In this document: positions 13,764-36,692 of the stretch, in pieces
Layout of the letters: every line of letters starts with the position of its first letter
Position numbering within the stretch: position 1 is the first letter of the stretch
Assembly: GCA_030427925.1 (NCBI GenBank)
Contig: JAUICJ010000002.1
Coordinates: forward strand, 1 to 64,000
DNA length: 64,000 nt
From: Bacteroidia bacterium
GTDB taxonomy: Bacteria; Bacteroidota; Bacteroidia; Flavobacteriales_D; Sanyastnellaceae
Reading direction: 5' to 3'
The notes under the pieces: generated by a model
The model's input: only the letters and a program-made list of their open reading frames with translations
Told to the model about the DNA's origin: nothing
Databases searched by the model: none
Position numbers and translations under genes: made by a program

Positions 13764-14480
13764 TTAATTCATCGCGTGCGCCTTCAACACGTCATGGTGC
13801 GGGCGGCATTCGGCTACCAGCGCCTGTTCGGCTGGGGTGAGCTCCGGGGCTGGCGGCAAGGACGCGCCGTGTTTCCAGCCGGACGAAGCGTGGACGTTGG
13901 CGTACCAGTATTTGGCCCAAACCCCGTCCTCCTTCCTCGGCCCCGGCTCCCACGCCATCATCCCCGGCTCCCACGCCCAACCGCACGCCGTGCACAGCGC
14001 CCGCAAGCCCGCTTCCGGATCCACCACCAGCCGATCGCTGTCCAGCACGAACACCGGCCAGCCGCGCCGCCGGCATTCCGCCCACCACCAGGCCTGCCAT
14101 GCACAGCCCAAATCCTCCAACGTCGGTTCCACCCCCCCGTTCCGGTAGCTCGCCACCACAGCGGACGGTTCCCGCACGAGCAACACGTGCACGTGCTCCG
14201 CAAACACCTCAGGCGCCCAGCCCCTGAGGTGGCAGGCCATGTGCTTCAGGAACACATCGCGTCCAACACGCGGCTGCAGCAGGGGCAACAACGCCCACGG
14301 GTCGGTCGCTTGAACCGAGAGGACCTCCTGGCGCGACGGCCGTGCAGCCCCACTCAGCGCGAGGTAGTGCCCGAACAACGGCTCGTCCACCACCTCAACG
14401 TCAGCGCGTTGCGCCACGGAATACATCAGCGCCGTCGAGCGGTTGCGCGGTCCCGACCACAGCGAGACAACACGCCCCAT
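13764..14480 (-). CDS. P-loop sulfotransferase-family protein
   Basis: A 238-residue cytoplasmic protein starting MGRVVSLWSGPRNRSTALMYS. The SGPRNRST segment (about 9-16) is the 5'-phosphosulfate-binding loop of sulfotransferases, and DEPLFGHYL and VHVLLVREPSAVVASY (about 105-120, the 3'-phosphate-binding R-x7-S region) follow in the expected order. PAPS is therefore the likely donor; the acceptor is unknown. ATG 14480 is chosen because it overlaps the CotH-protein stop as ATGA and starts exactly at the conserved region; the longer upstream frame is a shadow. Adjacent class IV aminotransferase and exported kinase-like and oxidase genes suggest a shared modification task. Confidence 0.82.
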   Translation of the reverse strand: MGRVVSLWSGPRNRSTALMYSVAQRADVEVVDEPLFGHYLALSGAARPSRQEVLSVQATDPWALLPLLQPRVGRDVFLKHMACHLRGWAPEVFAEHVHVLLVREPSAVVASYRNGGVEPTLEDLGCAWQAWWWAECRRRGWPVFVLDSDRLVVDPEAGLRALCTACGWAWEPGMMAWEPGPRKEDGVWAKYWYANVHASSGWKHGASLPPAPELTPAEQALVAECRPHHDVLKAHAMN

Positions 14481-17400
14481 CAGCGGATGACCTGAATGAA
14501 GCCCGAGCGCTCCTCCGGAGCATCCTTGTGCGCGGACTGCAACCGCAAGTGGTACTGGTAGATGCCATCCGGGACGTAGTGCCCCCCGCCCTGATGTTCC
14601 CCGAGCCAAGGCTGGGTCGGATCTTCCGATTCGAACACGGTTTCCCCCCACCGATTGAAAACGCGGAGGCGGTAGTTCTCCGTTAATATGGCCTCGCCCA
14701 CAGGCAAGAACGCGTCGTTCATTCCGTCGTTGTTGGGCGAGAACGCCGTCGGCACATAGATCGCGAATTCAATGGGCGTGAAGTGCGCCGTCAGGACATC
14801 GGATTCCTCGATGTTGAACGCCACCTCGCGCTCCTGTGGCCCCGGGAACGGGTTCGCCTGCTCGCTCGTCCACCGATCGAACACCCAGTTGGGCTCGGGC
14901 GTCGCTGTGGCGTCCAGCGCGCCGATGGGCTCCAATCCGCCCGACCATTCGGACATCGTGCTGATGCCGCCCTCCAACAACACCGTGCCGGCTCCAGCGG
15001 GTTCCACCTTCACCGTCACTTCGATGTGCTGGATGACTTCAAAGTGAGCCGTAATCGTATCGGGTTCGTTCACGAAAATGGTGCCCGGTGAACTCGTCGC
15101 CGAAGGCGAAACGTTCAACCCCGTGGTGGTCCAACCTGTGAACACGTGCCACTCGTCCACGCCTTGCGCAGCGATGCTATGATAGCCCGCATCGGTCAGC
15201 TGACTTGCCGGGTAGGAGGCGAAGGGGATTCCGTCGAGCAAGATTTGGCCTGCACCTGCTGGTTCCACTTGGAACACCAGCATTTCTGGGTCCAAATCCG
15301 TTGCAAAATGGGCAATCAACGTCACATCACCCATCAGCTCAAAGCCCAACTCCGGGTTCTCCGGATCGAGCAACTCCACGTCGCCTTCGACGACCTCCCA
15401 AAACAAAAACGGCAAGGCGTTGCCCACATCAGCGGTCAGCGTCAACGGCAAGCCCACGAAGTAAATCCCATTGAACGGGGAAGCGGACTGGTTGATGGTC
15501 ACCGTGTTCACCTCCACCTCGCCGATTCCGTCGATGAGCACCGTCACCGTCGCGGATTCCACGTCGTAGCAATCCTCCATGCCGCTCACCAACGTGGAAG
15601 CACACCGGTCGTCAATGAAGTCGTGGATTTCCTGAACGTTCGCTTCCCATTGGGCGAGGTTTCCGCCCCAACGCTGGATGTGGCGTGGCATTTCGGGCTC
15701 GATGACCGCGATCATGGAGTCGAGTGCCCAATGCATGTAGTCGCAGCTGAAGTACGTGTTGCTCAAGTCCGCATAGCGGTTGATGTACAGGGCCCAAAAA
15801 TCTTCGTTCTCCAGCAAGGCGTTGAGCACGGGGACGTGGCCTTGGCCTCCTGGGTTGCCGAGGCTTTCCGGGTTGCACGGATCGGCATCCGGTTGCTGGG
15901 AGGGAACACCGGTGTAGTTCGCACCGTGCCCGAAGGTGTTGTCCATGTCCCACAGCGCATAGCGCCACCGCTTGGCATCACCGTCCGGATGGCGGCCACG
16001 CCACCAAGCGGTGTTCCAATTGAGCCAGTCGGCGCACACCACGTAGGAGTTCATCACGAAGTAGTCGATGAGGCTCATGGGATTCAGCACGCTCACGACG
16101 TAGTCGTAATTCGCGGGATCCGTCATGTCCTGCGTGGTGACGAAATTCACCAAGGTGTTCCAATCGGCCACCGAGCCGTATTCCTCCCACGTGCCCCCCC
16201 ACGTCTTGATGAAGTCCACGAAGTGCCGCGGTTGGTCATAGTATTCGGTGGTAAAGTCCAAATCATCCACCTTCTCCCGGTACTCGTAAACGCCCCAATA
16301 CTCACCGTTCAAGTAAACGATGCACGATTCGTTCGTGCGCTCATCGAGGTGCAGGTCGGCGAGGTGACTCAGGGTTTGCACGTAGGCGTCGCGGATGTGC
16401 CCTCCACCCGAAGACGGGTAGTTGTCGTTTGCAGCGGCTTTGAAAATGAGGCGCTGGTAGGCGTCCCGCTGCTTGACGTGAAACAAGGGGGCCTCAACGG
16501 CATAGCTGTAGCCCATTTCATCGCGGGAGACGTAATCGAAGCCTTTCTGAGGATAGGCGTTCGAGTCGTTGCCGTGTTCGTTGCTGTCGCCCGTGGCTTC
16601 GCACCAAAACGTGCCATCGGGATGAAAGAATTCGACGTGAGCCGGTTCATCGACGCCTCCCCCCCATCCTCCGGGCCAAGCGCCATCCTCTTGACCGTTC
16701 CCGGAAACGGAAACGACGATCATGTCGTGCACGTCGTTGCCCACGAAGTAGGTGTTCGTCGCAATGAAACTCGTGGCCATCGCCCCAGAAGGATCGAAGG
16801 CCGCCGCGCGAATGACCGTCGTCGCGTTCACCGCAATCGGCCCCGCATACAACGTGCTGGTCGCCGTCGGCGCATACCCGTTCGTCGTGTACCGAATTTC
16901 CAACCCAGCCGCTCCATCGAGGGCCACGGTCGTCCCTGCTGCGACCACCCCTGCCTCCACCGAAAAGGACGGCGTGGGAGCGTAACCGCTGTAGTACGTG
17001 CCTCCGTTGGAGGCATTGGGCGTCGGGGTGGCGCACACCACCCAATTGTTGCTCCCATCCACGTCGCGGGACCAACTGTGGTCCGCTTGATTCGGCGTCC
17101 AGTCCACGCCAAACGTGTGCTGCTCCAAAATCGCTCCGGATGGATCGGCAAAAACGATGGACTCGCCTGCGGTTTGGCGGATCTTGAAATTGGTGTTCAA
17201 GTTGCCCCCCGCATACAGGTTCGCAGGAACCTCGCCTTCTGCGGAACACATCACCATCAGATAACCGCCTGCGTTCACCTGCGTGCCCGCCGGGATCTCA
17301 AATTTCGTCGCGTCGGCGGGATCGTCACTCAAAAAGTAACCGCCCAAATCCACCGCCGCACCCGTGGGGTTGTAGAACTCCACGAAATCCTCGTTGTCCC

Positions 17401-17518
17401 CACCGATTCCGAGCGAATAGTTCGCTGCAGAAAACTCGTTGATCACGACTTGGCCCATGACGCCATTCAGGGAGCCAAGTGCACAACACCACGCAAGCAA
17501 GAGAGCAGAACGCTTCAT
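14480..17518 (-). CDS. Secreted lamin-tail / CotH-kinase protein with T9SS type B sorting domain
   Basis: A 1012-residue exported protein. Order: signal peptide (1-22, cleavage near VMGQ); lamin-tail domain (~23-130, VVINEFSAAN start); chitobiase C-terminal-like domain (~165-255); CotH kinase domain (~260-600); three InlB-like beta repeats each ending in an AHF motif (~680-910); and a gliding-type type B sorting domain (FSPNNDGMNDAF, ~925 to the end). In CotH, the candidate catalytic acids are present: Asp497 in CADWLNWN and Asp524/Asp526 in LWDMDNTFG. Bacillus CotH is a secreted-protein serine kinase, so activity is plausible here but untested. It begins 16 bp after the lysyl-oxidase stop and overlaps the sulfotransferase start. 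Confidence 0.92.
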   Translation of the reverse strand: MKRSALLLAWCCALGSLNGVMGQVVINEFSAANYSLGIGGDNEDFVEFYNPTGAAVDLGGYFLSDDPADATKFEIPAGTQVNAGGYLMVMCSAEGEVPANLYAGGNLNTNFKIRQTAGESIVFADPSGAILEQHTFGVDWTPNQADHSWSRDVDGSNNWVVCATPTPNASNGGTYYSGYAPTPSFSVEAGVVAAGTTVALDGAAGLEIRYTTNGYAPTATSTLYAGPIAVNATTVIRAAAFDPSGAMATSFIATNTYFVGNDVHDMIVVSVSGNGQEDGAWPGGWGGGVDEPAHVEFFHPDGTFWCEATGDSNEHGNDSNAYPQKGFDYVSRDEMGYSYAVEAPLFHVKQRDAYQRLIFKAAANDNYPSSGGGHIRDAYVQTLSHLADLHLDERTNESCIVYLNGEYWGVYEYREKVDDLDFTTEYYDQPRHFVDFIKTWGGTWEEYGSVADWNTLVNFVTTQDMTDPANYDYVVSVLNPMSLIDYFVMNSYVVCADWLNWNTAWWRGRHPDGDAKRWRYALWDMDNTFGHGANYTGVPSQQPDADPCNPESLGNPGGQGHVPVLNALLENEDFWALYINRYADLSNTYFSCDYMHWALDSMIAVIEPEMPRHIQRWGGNLAQWEANVQEIHDFIDDRCASTLVSGMEDCYDVESATVTVLIDGIGEVEVNTVTINQSASPFNGIYFVGLPLTLTADVGNALPFLFWEVVEGDVELLDPENPELGFELMGDVTLIAHFATDLDPEMLVFQVEPAGAGQILLDGIPFASYPASQLTDAGYHSIAAQGVDEWHVFTGWTTTGLNVSPSATSSPGTIFVNEPDTITAHFEVIQHIEVTVKVEPAGAGTVLLEGGISTMSEWSGGLEPIGALDATATPEPNWVFDRWTSEQANPFPGPQEREVAFNIEESDVLTAHFTPIEFAIYVPTAFSPNNDGMNDAFLPVGEAILTENYRLRVFNRWGETVFESEDPTQPWLGEHQGGGHYVPDGIYQYHLRLQSAHKDAPEERSGFIQVIR

Positions 17519-17534
17519 TTCAATGGATTCTAAA

Positions 17535-19937
17535 TCAGTGAATCGACAACCGTCCCGTCATCGGCTGGGCGTTGCGCCCCGTCAACCGATACACGTAGCT
17601 TCCCGGTTCCAAATCTTCTCGTTGGAGGCGAAGCTCCACCCCGTTGACCACCTCGCTGCGCACCACGCGTCCTCGAGCATCGAGCAATTCGAAGAGCACC
17701 GGCTGGCGGCTGGGATTGTCGAAACGAATGAGCGCCTCATCGGTCATCGGATTCGGGAACACCATCGGAGCTGCAGCCGTAAACTCGCTGACCGAATTCA
17801 CCAGAACGCAACCGTTCTCGATGAGGTTCACCGTGTTTTCGTATTGGTCGTTCACGACGTCCACGATGTTGTCGATGCAAATCTCGTCGGAGACATTCGA
17901 CCAATAAAGCCGCACAAGCGGAACCCATTCGTAGTTTTTCTTGAAGCTCTCACCTTCGTAGGACAAACCGATGACCTTCTGTCCCCCCGGCATGTGCGCC
18001 GGTTGAATCGGGTACTCGATGGGATCGGCGATGCTCACTGCGCTGGCGATGCCCATTCCGCTCACCACGAACTCGTAGCCCACGATTCGGTTGTTGGGAT
18101 TCAAAACGTGCACGTCCACAAAGCCCTCGCTCGTGTTCACCGCACCGATGGAGAACCGAACGGAATCGAAAGGATTCGTGATGGCCACGACCGGAAATTG
18201 GCACTTGTCGTGGACACCGGACGAGTCGGGGTGTTGGTGCGCCGCGTTGAAAAATTGGCACTGCGACATCAGGGCAGCGTCCGTCACGCTGATGGCTCCG
18301 TCTTGGTCGATGTCCGTGCACGGAAGCGCCTCAATGTCATTGCCCAAAATGTGCTCGACGTAATCGACCGCATCCGAATACTCCTGCGCACCGTTCGCAT
18401 CGAGGTCACCCATGAGGGCGGAGCCGTTGCAGTCCCCATTGCAGTCGGGCTGCGCCAAACCGAACACCTCTCCCATGCAGTCGGTGTACTGGGGGCAGTC
18501 GTCGAATTCCTCGATGACCAGCGCGCCGCTGGAGCGGTCCATGCCGATGCACACCACGGCCCAGTTGTTGTCGTACGAAATTTCGTAACGCCCCAAGGCG
18601 TCTGGGCTCTCGTCCCAGTTCACGCGCACGACCAACTGGTATTGGCCGTCGGGAATGTCGGTGACATCGATCCATTGGCAGGACAAACCGCTGCTGTAGA
18701 TGTCTCCACAATGCGCCGAAATGCCCATGTTGCTGCAACCGTATTGCGCCGTTCCCCCATCGCTGCATTCCAAATCCATCACGCAGAATCCATTCTTGAA
18801 ACCGATGGGCAAGGCGGTGCCGTCCATTTCGAACAAGATGTACTCCGCATACCCTTTGTAGTGGAAGTGGTTGTGGCAATCGCCCCATTCGAATTGCTGG
18901 GTCTCCGCGTTGTTGGACGTTGGGCCGATGTAGTAGTCCACGTCCCCAACGTTCTTGATGTGGGTCGTGAACCGGACCAACTCCCGCGTTCCATAGCCGT
19001 TCAAACAGCCTTCCCCGACATAGCAATCCCCCTGCCCCACATTCAAGGTCGCTGCAGTCAAGCTGTTGGAAATCGCACTTTCCAACACCGTCAAGTCCGG
19101 CCCCGTGCAATCCGGATCACCCGGGTAAGAGCAATCCCCCGAATCGACCTCCGCCAGCGGGCTGTAATTGCACGCCGCCTCGTCCATGCAGCCAGTCGGC
19201 GGCCCCACAAAGTCGAACTCCCATGCAAAATCCGCGTTGCACGAACCGTCGAGGCTCGCGATGCGGATCCAATACGTGACGCCTCCTTCCAACAGCACCG
19301 TCAAGTTCGCTGACTCCCCGCAACCGCCTTCGAAATCGTCGTAATAAATCGAACCTTCGTTGGTGTCGTCGAAGTTGTTCATGTTGCAGTAATCGTAGAC
19401 CCAAAGCCGCGTGTTGCAAGCCGCCTCGCACGTGCTCAGGAGGTACATGCCGTTCGCCGGTGGGGTGAACGTGTACCAATACGTGTCGGCTGTTTGGTCC
19501 ACCATGCCGTAATCGGCGTCCGTCAGCAGCTGAGCGTCCGAACACGTATAACCTTCTGGACAAAGGAAGTAAGCGGACTCACCAAAACCGTAGCTGTTGC
19601 CCGAAGCCACTTCCACCCCATCGATGGAAATCCAGTAACCTCCCGGGCTGTAAATGCCATCGCCGTAGGTATCGTTGATGTGGAATTCGAGGCATGGCGC
19701 CTCTTCCTCCGAAGCAAAACACACCACGGTCTCCTCCAACACCCCCGAAGTTCCGCCGCCGCCTTCCGCCAAAACGACCGTCCCCGAGAGCAACTCCCAG
19801 GAGATTTCGTTGGGCCAATTGTCCGGTTGTACTCCGATGGTGATTTCGATTTCACCGGCCGCACATTGAGCGGCAAGGTGATGAGGTGCCAGGGATAGGA
19901 TTCCCAAAACGAGGAACAGAGGCGAATAGGGCTTCAT
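17535..19937 (-). CDS. T9SS-exported lysyl oxidase-family copper amine oxidase
   Basis: An 800-residue secreted protein. Signal peptide 1-23, then a beta-rich N-terminal region. A GCMDEAACNY-type repeat near 250 is followed by a lysyl oxidase domain (~260-455), a dockerin-like EF-hand pair (~505-555, DLDANG and DIDQDG) and a type A T9SS sorting domain (PNPMTDEAL to the end, ~725-800). The oxidase signature is complete: copper triad His355/His357/His359 in CHNHFHY, the lysine of the quinone cofactor as Lys381 in GFKNGFC, and its tyrosine as Tyr414 in DIYSSGLSCQWID. Spacings (22 and 33 residues) closely follow animal enzymes. Such enzymes oxidise peptidyl lysine to allysine, which cross-links. 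First gene of the minus-strand train. Confidence 0.88.
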   Translation of the reverse strand: MKPYSPLFLVLGILSLAPHHLAAQCAAGEIEITIGVQPDNWPNEISWELLSGTVVLAEGGGGTSGVLEETVVCFASEEEAPCLEFHINDTYGDGIYSPGGYWISIDGVEVASGNSYGFGESAYFLCPEGYTCSDAQLLTDADYGMVDQTADTYWYTFTPPANGMYLLSTCEAACNTRLWVYDYCNMNNFDDTNEGSIYYDDFEGGCGESANLTVLLEGGVTYWIRIASLDGSCNADFAWEFDFVGPPTGCMDEAACNYSPLAEVDSGDCSYPGDPDCTGPDLTVLESAISNSLTAATLNVGQGDCYVGEGCLNGYGTRELVRFTTHIKNVGDVDYYIGPTSNNAETQQFEWGDCHNHFHYKGYAEYILFEMDGTALPIGFKNGFCVMDLECSDGGTAQYGCSNMGISAHCGDIYSSGLSCQWIDVTDIPDGQYQLVVRVNWDESPDALGRYEISYDNNWAVVCIGMDRSSGALVIEEFDDCPQYTDCMGEVFGLAQPDCNGDCNGSALMGDLDANGAQEYSDAVDYVEHILGNDIEALPCTDIDQDGAISVTDAALMSQCQFFNAAHQHPDSSGVHDKCQFPVVAITNPFDSVRFSIGAVNTSEGFVDVHVLNPNNRIVGYEFVVSGMGIASAVSIADPIEYPIQPAHMPGGQKVIGLSYEGESFKKNYEWVPLVRLYWSNVSDEICIDNIVDVVNDQYENTVNLIENGCVLVNSVSEFTAAAPMVFPNPMTDEALIRFDNPSRQPVLFELLDARGRVVRSEVVNGVELRLQREDLEPGSYVYRLTGRNAQPMTGRLSIH

Positions 19938-23488: not shown

Positions 23489-25366
23489 TCAGCGCACCAC
23501 GTGGACGCGCTGAACGTCCCGCCCTTCCTGCGACTCGAAAAAGTACACCCCCGCGGGCCAATCGGCCACGTTCAATTGCCCCTTTGATTCCGCCAACTCG
23601 GCAACCACGCGGCCGGTGGCATCGCGCACCCGCCCGGTTTGGCTTCCTGCTGGCAACTGCCAATTCACCACATCCGCCGCCGGATTCGGAAACACCATGA
23701 AGGCCTCAGCATCGAGCGCTTCCACCCCGGTGCTGCACGAACCGATGGTCAAAATCAGCACATCCGAGTGCTCGCACCCCTCGTCGTTGCTCACGACCAA
23801 ATACAAGGGATACGTGCCCACGCCCCAATCGCTGGCCTCGATGTACAAAAACTGGTTGATGGAACCGTCCTGCCAAACGTAATCCAACGCGGGTGGACCG
23901 TACAGCAAAAGGCTCTCGTCCAAGCAAATCAGCGTATCGGCGCCCAACGAAAATTCGAGCGATGAACCGGAAACCACCTCCACCGAAGCCAGGAACGTGC
24001 ACCCCTCGTCATCCGTGACTTCGAGGTCGTACCATCCTTCCGGGAGCCCCGCTGGATCCTCTTCGGTCGAGGTGAACCCTGCATTCGTGGTCCACGCGAA
24101 TTCGTAAGGCCCCGATCCGCCCGAAAGGGTCACTTCGATTCCGCCATCCGAAGCCCCGCTGCACGATGTCGACGAGGACGCAAAATCAAACACGAAGGGC
24201 TCGGGCGCAGTCAAGGTGACGCTTTCGGTATAGGTCACGCCGCAAGCCGTGGTGAGCTCGACCTCATAGGTTCCTGGGAACAGGGCGCCCGCATAAGGTG
24301 CATCGGTGTCCACGCCGTTGCCGGTGATGTGGTAGCTGCTTCCGAGGCCGCTTTCGTTCATCGCGAGGAGGATTTGGCCGGAAGGTTCGACTTCCTCGCT
24401 CAACGGACAATCCATGTTGCTGGTGAGCACATTGAACGATGGAGCCGGGTCCGGATTGGAGGCAACGGACACGAGCGCCGTCCCTGAGCTCCCCGCCCAG
24501 CCGTCGAGCTGAATGAGGTAGGTCGCGCCGGCTTCGAGGCAGTCCGATGCGATGCGGGAGGCGTATCCATTGCCCGGACCGCATCCTCCCGGGATGTCGT
24601 CTGAAGCGCCGACGAGCGTGAACGAGGACCAATCGCCGCAATCGTCGACCCGGTAAAGCGCAAGTTGCGTGTCCATGTTGGTGCCCTCGTGGCAGCTGCT
24701 GATGAGCACGGGGTCGTTGGAACTGGCAGTGAAGCTGAGCCAAACCGTGCGCGCGATGTTCCCGTCCGAACCGCACCACCACCCCTGTGTTCCGCACCCG
24801 CCCAGGGGGTTCGCGTCGGGCGAGGGTTCGCCGATTTGGACGGTGGCTCCTTCCGTCGAAACGGTGACGGTATCGCCGTCCACGGCAATGGCCGCGGCAT
24901 CGCACGGGCTGTCGTGCTCAACAAACGACGATTCCGAAGGGCAGAAGTTCCAGGCATTGCCGGCACCGGTGCCGGTATACGCCCCGATTGCCACGCCATC
25001 AGCGGCCAGCTCGAATAACGTGCCCCCATCCCCGTAGTCGTCGATGTGAACGAAGTCGTAGCATCCCCACGTCGGCAAGCAGAAGGGGCCCTCGGTGATG
25101 ACGGCGTTCGAAGCGTACGTCGCCGAACCGTTCGCGTTGCCGTTTCCGTCGCATCCCACGTCGTCCGAGTTGCCTCCAAATGCCCACGGATTCACCCCAC
25201 ATTCCGCACCGGTGTCCACGATCTCCCAATACACTTCATATCCCCAACCGTCCGTGTCCACAGTAACCGTCAGTGCCGACTCGCCCGCTGGACATTGCGC
25301 AAAAAGGGAGGGAACCAGGACCCATGCTGCCCCGGTGATGGATGCTATCCTTAACATGTTTTTCAA
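23489..25366 (-). CDS. Secreted multidomain protein with T9SS type A sorting domain
   Basis: A 625-residue exported protein; signal peptide 1-23 (cleavage at LFAQ). The first ~130 residues resemble the N-terminus of the lysyl-oxidase protein (CPAGES..., a D-Y-G-D-G-G segment and an FCPSE block), followed by a beta-rich region similar to secreted-protein sugar-binding or CUB-like folds (~140-305). One SprB-type repeat lies near 400 (SCSGASDGG), and a type A sorting domain with FPNPAADVVNW (~550 to the end) closes the protein. It is probably surface-bound or released. No catalytic motif was seen. TATCTTCC (25380-25387, complement) is a weak -7 box 13 nt before the start. Confidence 0.85.
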   Translation of the reverse strand: MKNMLRIASITGAAWVLVPSLFAQCPAGESALTVTVDTDGWGYEVYWEIVDTGAECGVNPWAFGGNSDDVGCDGNGNANGSATYASNAVITEGPFCLPTWGCYDFVHIDDYGDGGTLFELAADGVAIGAYTGTGAGNAWNFCPSESSFVEHDSPCDAAAIAVDGDTVTVSTEGATVQIGEPSPDANPLGGCGTQGWWCGSDGNIARTVWLSFTASSNDPVLISSCHEGTNMDTQLALYRVDDCGDWSSFTLVGASDDIPGGCGPGNGYASRIASDCLEAGATYLIQLDGWAGSSGTALVSVASNPDPAPSFNVLTSNMDCPLSEEVEPSGQILLAMNESGLGSSYHITGNGVDTDAPYAGALFPGTYEVELTTACGVTYTESVTLTAPEPFVFDFASSSTSCSGASDGGIEVTLSGGSGPYEFAWTTNAGFTSTEEDPAGLPEGWYDLEVTDDEGCTFLASVEVVSGSSLEFSLGADTLICLDESLLLYGPPALDYVWQDGSINQFLYIEASDWGVGTYPLYLVVSNDEGCEHSDVLILTIGSCSTGVEALDAEAFMVFPNPAADVVNWQLPAGSQTGRVRDATGRVVAELAESKGQLNVADWPAGVYFFESQEGRDVQRVHVVR

Positions 25367-34880: not shown

Positions 34881-36692
34881 TCAGCACTCCACGCCAAAGG
34901 CAGCCAAGAAGGCCAACAAATCCGGCGTTCCAACGGCCCCATTTCCATCCAAATCAGCCGGGCACGGGTTCACCGCATCGAAGGTGCACGTGCCGTTCTC
35001 CACGTTGGCGTTGGGGCTGTAATTCGAAGCCGTAGGGTACGTGCATCCCTCCACCAACGGAGTCGCACACGATCCGTCATCCGAACCCGCGAACGGGTGA
35101 AACTCTGCGCTGTACGGATCCGTGCAACCTGCGCAGGCATCGCAGCTGAAGAAACAGTGCGCTTCGGTGATCAGGTCACTGCCCGCGACCACGAGGACCC
35201 GGTTGCCCCCGTTTCCGCAGTCGCCTACCGACTCGTCCGCACCCCACTCGTTGCCATTCACGAATTTGTACTCGTACGCCCCGTCAGCCAAAACCAACTG
35301 CACCTCGTACACGCCGTAGCCCAAAAGCGCCATCGGTGTCGCTCCGGGATCCCAACCTTGGAAGGCGCCCGCAACGTGCACGCCGTTGGGCGAAACGGTC
35401 TCGTTGCTCATGTTCACTCGCAGGGTCACCAGGTATTGGCACGATCCATCGTTCGCGTCCGCTTCAGCATTGTAATTCTGAGCGTTCGCGTCGTCGCAAC
35501 CGGGGTTGTAGAAGCACGAACCGTCGTCCTCGGTGGCTGCTGCGTTGTAGTTGGCCGCGGTTTCATCCGTGCAACCCATGACCGACTCGGAACACCCCGA
35601 GCAGCTGTTGAAACAAACGACCTCCAAGACCTCCGCCTCGCCCGAGCGGACGTGCGTCCGGTTCCAGCTTCCGAAGCCGTTGTCGGCCCCGCATCCCATC
35701 ATGGCAAAGTCGGCGGTTTCCGAGCCGCTCTCGTCGATGGCGCCCCCCACGAATGGGTTGCCGATGGAGTATTTGTATTGGATCTCATCCACGCCCTCCA
35801 CGAAAACCGTCCCCGTCCAAACGCCGTCTCCGTCCGCATCGGCGAGCGCCACCGCCCCTGCTTGCCACGAGGGCGCAGTGAAGGACCCCATGAGGTAGAC
35901 GCCATTGGCAGCTGCCGAATCGATTTGGGAAGCATCCACTTGGAAGGTGATGTCTGCGCCCGGGGTAGGCAGAGCGCATTCGGCGGCACATTGACCGAAG
36001 CATGTGGCCACTGTCAGGGCCTCATCGCCCACCGTGATCTCGCGGTTGTTGGAAACCGCGCACTCAGAGGGAACGGCTTCATCGGAGCCCCAAGCGTTTC
36101 CGTTGACGAATTTGTATTGATACGTAGCGGGTTCAATGTCGAGGGTGATGCTGTAAATGCCGTCGCCATCATCGTCCGTCAACTCCGTGCCTGCGGGATC
36201 CCAGCCTTGGAACGATCCGGCTACGTGCACCCCTTGAGCGCTCACTTCCTGGAGCGACAGGTCCACTTCAAAGGTCACCGGTGTCGTCGAAACGACCGTA
36301 CCGCATGCCACACACGCTCCGAAGCAGACGGGATCCAACACCGTGTCCACGTCCGGCGCCGCCTCCAAGAAGCGGTTGTTGTTGTCGCTCACGTTGCCGC
36401 ACGCGGGGGGAACCGTTTCTTCAAGGCCCCACGTCGGACCGTTCATGAATTTCCACTGGACAAAACTTCCGGCCTCCACGGCCGCCGTGACCGAATACAC
36501 GCCATCGCCGTCATCGTCCGACAATTGGGTTCCACCTGCGGTCCACCCTTGGAAGGAACCCGCTACAAACACCCCAGCAGGGTTCGGTGGGGTTTCGTTC
36601 ATGTCGACTTGGAAGGTGATGTTCACCAGTGATTGGGACCAAGCGCCCAAGGAAAACGCAAGGGCTGCGGCAAAGGATAAGACGTGCTTCAT
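34881..36692 (-). CDS. Secreted protein with four starch-binding-like (CBM20/48-type) modules and an EF-hand tail
   Basis: A 603-residue exported protein, signal peptide 1-19 (AWSQ). Four beta modules (~23-110, 137-232, 246-365 and 425-515) repeat G-V-x-V-A-G-S/A-F-Q-G-W-x-x-G and Y-x-Y-K-F-V-N-G-x-x-W-G, the glucan-binding pattern of CBM20/CBM48-like folds. GCTDETAANY-type Cys repeats lie between modules 3 and 4 and after module 4. It ends in CPADLDGNGAVG... DLLAFLAAFG, a single Ca-type loop, with no T9SS domain. Likely captures alpha-glucans for the GH13 enzyme 65 bp downstream. TATGTTTG (36775-36782) is its promoter. Confidence 0.85.
   Translation of the reverse strand: MKHVLSFAAALAFSLGAWSQSLVNITFQVDMNETPPNPAGVFVAGSFQGWTAGGTQLSDDDGDGVYSVTAAVEAGSFVQWKFMNGPTWGLEETVPPACGNVSDNNNRFLEAAPDVDTVLDPVCFGACVACGTVVSTTPVTFEVDLSLQEVSAQGVHVAGSFQGWDPAGTELTDDDGDGIYSITLDIEPATYQYKFVNGNAWGSDEAVPSECAVSNNREITVGDEALTVATCFGQCAAECALPTPGADITFQVDASQIDSAAANGVYLMGSFTAPSWQAGAVALADADGDGVWTGTVFVEGVDEIQYKYSIGNPFVGGAIDESGSETADFAMMGCGADNGFGSWNRTHVRSGEAEVLEVVCFNSCSGCSESVMGCTDETAANYNAAATEDDGSCFYNPGCDDANAQNYNAEADANDGSCQYLVTLRVNMSNETVSPNGVHVAGAFQGWDPGATPMALLGYGVYEVQLVLADGAYEYKFVNGNEWGADESVGDCGNGGNRVLVVAGSDLITEAHCFFSCDACAGCTDPYSAEFHPFAGSDDGSCATPLVEGCTYPTASNYSPNANVENGTCTFDAVNPCPADLDGNGAVGTPDLLAFLAAFGVEC

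Follow-up and report, generated by a model that had tools for sequence, protein, structure and literature searches.

The open reading frame at positions 17535 to 19937 of the window, the 64,000-nucleotide stretch of DNA analysed here, lies on the minus strand, as do all of the window features given below with coordinates. It starts with an ATG at 19937, stops at 17535, and encodes a T9SS-routed lysyl oxidase (LOX) of 800 aa. With hmmscan, the protein scores 108.8 bits against the lysyl oxidase family PF01186 (cutoff 20.4; E=3.6e-31), and by sequence alone human LOXL2 (5ze3) is its sole strong relative of solved structure (E=5.9e-21). The LOX domain spans approximately residues 275–475 (18513..19115), as judged from the Pfam match (residues 315–463), the LOXL2 match and a model of the domain. 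Within it are the predicted copper ligands His355, His357 and His359 (18861..18875), and the predicted quinone-cofactor residues Lys381 (18795..18797) and Tyr414 (18696..18698). An earlier note, made from the sequence, had reported this frame and these five residues, with spacings of 22 and 33 residues from triad to lysine to tyrosine, followed by CQWID and a type A sorting domain; all of these are present, with CQWID at residues 420–424, and the family profile that the note proposed as a check recognises the domain.

All five residues are invariant across 93 of 93 aligned homologous domains, as are many cysteines, even though domain identity to the window protein falls to 55% in some of them. 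A profile built from 46 homologous domains reaches LOXL2 at E=5.8e-34, with the histidine triad aligned to the HxHxH of LOXL2, Lys381 to the lysine of GHKASFC, and Tyr414 to the tyrosine of DMYRHDIDCQW. The residue and family evidence is far beyond chance, and the window ORF is a genuine member of the lysyl oxidase family.

Domain layout and export signals

Modelled alone, the LOX domain reaches pLDDT 89.9 and pTM 0.85, and Foldseek superimposes this model on 5ze3 with a TM-score of 0.71–0.72 and an rmsd of 2.8–3.1 (E=2e-14); apart from LOXL2, that search returned nothing better than 1e-3. The overlay on LOXL2 suggested in the earlier note thus agrees at the level of the fold, as distinct from atomic distances, and since 5ze3 represents the precursor state it is uninformative on the mature quinone. 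In the full-length AlphaFold2 model (pLDDT 84, pTM 0.53), for which LOXL2 again ranks first (E=2.9e-14), the order is N-terminal β-strand regions, LOX domain, two-helix dockerin-like module, β-sandwich, and T9SS tail. The two N-terminal β-sandwich regions (approximately residues 29–245; 19203..19853) match no Pfam family. The full-length model also matches 2w1n (cohesin-FN3) at E=1.1e-6, an alignment whose range is not given; we infer that it falls on the β-sandwich at approximately residues 583–712 (17802..18191), which is possibly cohesin-like.

The internal module (approximately residues 507–562; 18252..18419) was called dockerin-like in the earlier note, a description that holds weakly for the window protein, which misses the PF00404 (dockerin type I) cutoff (13.1 bits versus 22.9; E=0.12), and better for the equivalent module of homologue L105, which passes it (30.1 bits; E=5.5e-7). 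The window module is therefore best described as dockerin-like only, judging from these profile scores and the two modelled helices. The multi-domain architecture, including the dockerin-like and β-sandwich modules, is conserved along the whole protein in homologues. Early-branching long LOX proteins (L102, L105 and others) also have PF11617 repeats beside the predicted copper enzyme domain; this Pfam family is named 'Cu-binding_MopE, putative metal-binding motif'.

Signals for export are found at both ends. A putative Sec signal peptide at approximately residues 1–24 (19866..19937; MKPYSPLFLVLGILSLAPHHLAAQ) is recognised by reading the sequence, and residues 6–21 form a helix in the model. 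The type A T9SS sorting domain occupies residues 726–791 (17565..17762) and scores 26.7 bits with TIGR04183 (cutoff 23) and 26.8 bits with PF18962, marginally below the cutoff of 27. The genome encodes the SprA translocon (1835.7 bits) and contains 53 TIGR04183 matches, 50 of them above cutoff; among full-length LOX homologues, 33 of the 49 scanned match TIGR04183. Another T9SS type A protein is encoded near the LOX gene (23489–25366 (-), 625 aa), with an SprB repeat and a lysine content of 0.32%; 28 loci keep a homologue of it as a neighbour.

Genomic neighbourhood and paralogues

Sixteen bp downstream of the LOX gene is a gene (14480..17518 (-)) for a 1012-aa CotH-domain kinase homologue (PF08757, E=1.3e-32) with a Lamin Tail Domain and a type B T9SS tail, the latter recognised by PF13585 (E=4.2e-18) and scoring 34.7 bits with the NCBIfam model, just under its cutoff of 35. 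Two motifs of the protein, DWLN-WN and WDxDxxFG, do not vary across 27 homologues, a comparison among these sequences rather than with Asp228 and Asp251 of B. subtilis CotH; a sequence search of the protein against the PDB matched nothing. A CotH-domain gene lies directly downstream of LOX on the same strand in 30 loci, although many of these are metagenome near-copies and they do not amount to 30 independent events. In 26 of the 30 the two genes are at most 18 bp apart, and in eight they overlap by 4 bp.

Upstream of LOX is an S46 peptidase gene, at a distance that is usually 170–400 bp and in the window 326 bp, and other genes in the block also keep their order across loci. In two other genera LOX and a CotH gene do not adjoin but are separated by about 10 kb, and the LOX genes of other clades have no adjacent CotH. 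Because block order is conserved in general and CotH can stand 10 kb off, it is the tight spacing, and not nearness as such, that carries the argument for a shared function. In this lineage the LOX gene and the CotH-like kinase gene are most likely co-transcribed.

A tree of LOX domains places the window protein in a largely CotH-linked clade, distinct both from a second, CotH-free clade and from the early-branching long forms; most of the rows marked as lacking CotH among L082–L129 have about 1.5 kb of flank, so that absence there is uninformative. Where LOX and LOX2 genes are paired, we considered whether the gene that separates them is a special one, and rejected the idea: judged by eye, this conserved gene, with a product of about 1100 aa, looks like a methylmalonyl-CoA mutase fusion of the IcmF type, and thus like housekeeping.

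In a paralogous LOX clade the T9SS tail is replaced by a dockerin-like C-terminal module in 27 proteins, with about seven more similar endings recognised by eye. Pfam Dockerin_1 matches this tail at E-values from 1.3e-4 to 0.13. The tail is about 55 aa long and follows the pattern CPGDxNxDGxVTVxDxL..FGC..C..DxNGDGxVxVxDxL..LSAFGxxC (alignment A4). There are 25 matches to the module in the window's genome, and in 26 of 26 loci picked from the best matches (L152–L177; 23 distinct proteins) it stands at the exact C-terminus, 0–2 residues from the stop. In a phylum sample of 247 genomes it was found in two members of the window's family and, weakly, in one genome of the same order. The tail, which recurs about 25 times per genome, seems to be all but restricted to the family and is a candidate for a signal by which the family sorts or anchors proteins. 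A 603-aa ORF in the window (34881–36692 (-)) ends in a half copy of it, NPCPADLDGNGAVGTPDLLAFLAAFGVEC.

Distribution among Bacteroidota

PF01186 is present in 90 of 101 genomes of the window's GTDB family (Sanyastnellaceae), and in 43 of the 48 that are of good quality. Across a phylum-wide sample it occurs in four of 395 genomes, two of which belong to the same family and two of which are weak partial matches. LOX is a hallmark of this family and is rare elsewhere in the phylum sample, a distribution that is new here; such near-universality in the family, set against four of 395 in the phylum, argues for a retained function. Within the window's order, PF01186 occurs in 58 of the 66 genomes that belong to the family; for the 133 genomes outside it, our own counts give 12 with strong matches (E below 1e-20) and 11 with weak ones confined to the C-terminal half of the model. 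In sister families, frames of about 480–790 aa (G502, G511, G530, G555, G567, G575 and others) match only positions 128–197 of the model, at E-values of about 1e-5 to 3e-8, and a pattern search of the fetched sister-family loci (L142–L145) did not find the HxHxH–CQW pair. From their sequences these half-match proteins are possibly degenerate or LOX-related domains.

A scan of genome contigs yielded 176 relatives. We kept 80 of them, the majority being metagenome-assembled genomes titled Flavobacteriales or Saprospiraceae. The one named strain among those kept is Lewinella cohaerens DSM 23179 (L077), whose contig stops before the end of the LOX gene; a LOX homologue is thus available in a culture-collection strain. 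Genus g12 includes G042, a genome in two contigs (99% complete) without PF01186 and with one CotH gene, alongside G012 and G031, which have PF01186 and nine CotH matches. These genomes are a natural contrast for LOX function.

Three findings go beyond the earlier note: the presence of LOX throughout the family, the CotH-kinase gene coupled to it, and the existence of paralogues that end in another kind of tail. That note also held a T9SS-routed LOX to be little described, and this stands within the literature searched (mainly open-access, without preprints), where we found no description of a lysyl oxidase as T9SS cargo, in Flavobacteriales or elsewhere. Bacterial LOX, including those of Bacteroidetes, have been known since 2015, chiefly as lone LOX domains (PMC4448552). 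The family to which the present protein belongs is a known one; it is the architecture and setting of the protein that we did not find described in the literature searched.

Proposed function and comparison with known systems

We propose that the protein is a copper-dependent surface amine oxidase of the LOX family that cross-links surface or matrix proteins through lysine oxidation with CotH as a partner, a proposal to which we give about even weight. The protein would be exported by Sec and then by the T9SS to the cell surface, where copper bound by His355, His357 and His359 would drive formation of lysine tyrosylquinone from Lys381 and Tyr414. In surface or matrix proteins, the active enzyme would convert lysine side-chain amines oxidatively into aldehydes, releasing H2O2 and ammonia, and the aldehydes would condense into covalent cross-links. 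We infer that the enzyme is catalytically active and acts jointly with the secreted CotH-like kinase, the two probably modifying the outer coat or matrix together. These bacteria may, then, cross-link their own outer coat by LOX, as the earlier note had supposed for adhesins or matrix at their surface.

The choice of substrate is where other readings compete. The T9SS-tailed proteins of the window contain only 0.3–1.1% lysine and offer few obvious target lysines, which counts against cross-linking and agrees better with an active surface oxidase for small amines, polyamines or foreign peptides, serving in nitrogen supply, H2O2 production or the disarming of cationic antimicrobials. The LOX of the archaeon Haloterrigena acts on polypeptides that contain lysine, requires Cu2+ when it is refolded and is sensitive to BAPN, but its relaxed specificity also takes in taurine, cadaverine, histamine, polymyxin and aminoglycosides (PMC6452851), making small-amine oxidation a serious rival. 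The surface-sorted multi-domain architecture, conserved throughout, points more to protein substrates, however, as does the coupling to a protein-kinase homologue, and we regard oxidation of small or foreign amines as possible but the less probable account. The low lysine content was measured on T9SS-tailed proteins of the window, and from it we draw no conclusion on lysine depletion as a LOX-linked trait.

Collagen-like proteins, the substrates that the animal enzymes would suggest, are encoded in 28 of the family's 48 good-quality genomes, and the window's own genome encodes one of 1102 aa (G000:C30; L134:5558-8866). Its five Gly-X-Y segments, however, contain no lysine at all, with seven lysines in the roughly 1100 residues of the protein, and within the order collagen-like proteins do not track LOX (39 of 66 genomes inside the family versus 72 of 133 outside). 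Collagen cross-linking was deemed unlikely for bacteria by Grau-Bove et al. (PMC4448552). We rejected the collagen-like protein as a substrate on the lysine-free segments and the lack of co-distribution, and that LOX cross-links the bacterium's own collagen-like proteins in the manner of animals is highly improbable. Loss of catalysis, leaving a structural or binding protein with a LOX fold, is scarcely more credible; LOX activity in this clade is a prediction, but residues would be expected to drift if catalysis had been lost, and the invariance of the three histidines, the lysine and the tyrosine in all 93 homologues argues against it.

For the cross-linking reading, a broader version can be sketched, which we put forward as speculation with rather little confidence: an entire Bacteroidota family, known mostly from metagenomes, would harden its coat covalently with a co-transcribed, T9SS-exported LOX and CotH-type kinase and display further LOX by a family-specific dockerin-like tail, as a counterpart of extracellular-matrix maturation in animals. 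The role of bacterial lysyl oxidases is an open question by the literature's own statement (PMC4448552), and a near-universal LOX with export signals and a coupled secreted kinase homologue makes that role testable. If LOX does cross-link surface proteins, enzymatic lysine cross-linking of extracellular matrix is no animal speciality.

Compared with known systems, the window protein resembles T9SS type A cargo (TIGR04183) in its C-terminal sorting domain, its putative signal peptide and the presence of SprA in the genome. LodA (marinocine) is, like the predicted LOX, a bacterial extracellular enzyme with a quinone cofactor, an L-lysine ε-oxidase, but it belongs to another family, uses cysteine tryptophylquinone and acts on free lysine. 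With human LOXL2 and animal LOX the protein shares its predicted secretion and a homologous catalytic domain with aligned HxHxH, LTQ lysine and tyrosine, and CQWxDxT; identity to LOXL2 is 27–28%, alongside the fold similarity given above. It differs in carrying a T9SS tail and a dockerin-like module where the animal proteins have SRCR or propeptide regions, and in having Gly352 in place of the first histidine of the animal copper motif, which bacterial and fungal LOX are reported to lack (PMC4448552). With HTU-LOX of Haloterrigena turkmenica and the Streptomyces LOX it has in common a PF01186 domain with the three histidines, the lysine and the tyrosine (PMC6452851, PMC4448552). Other prokaryotic LOX consist mostly of a lone LOX domain with or without a signal peptide or TM region (PMC4448552), whereas the window encodes an 800-aa, multi-domain, CotH-linked T9SS cargo.
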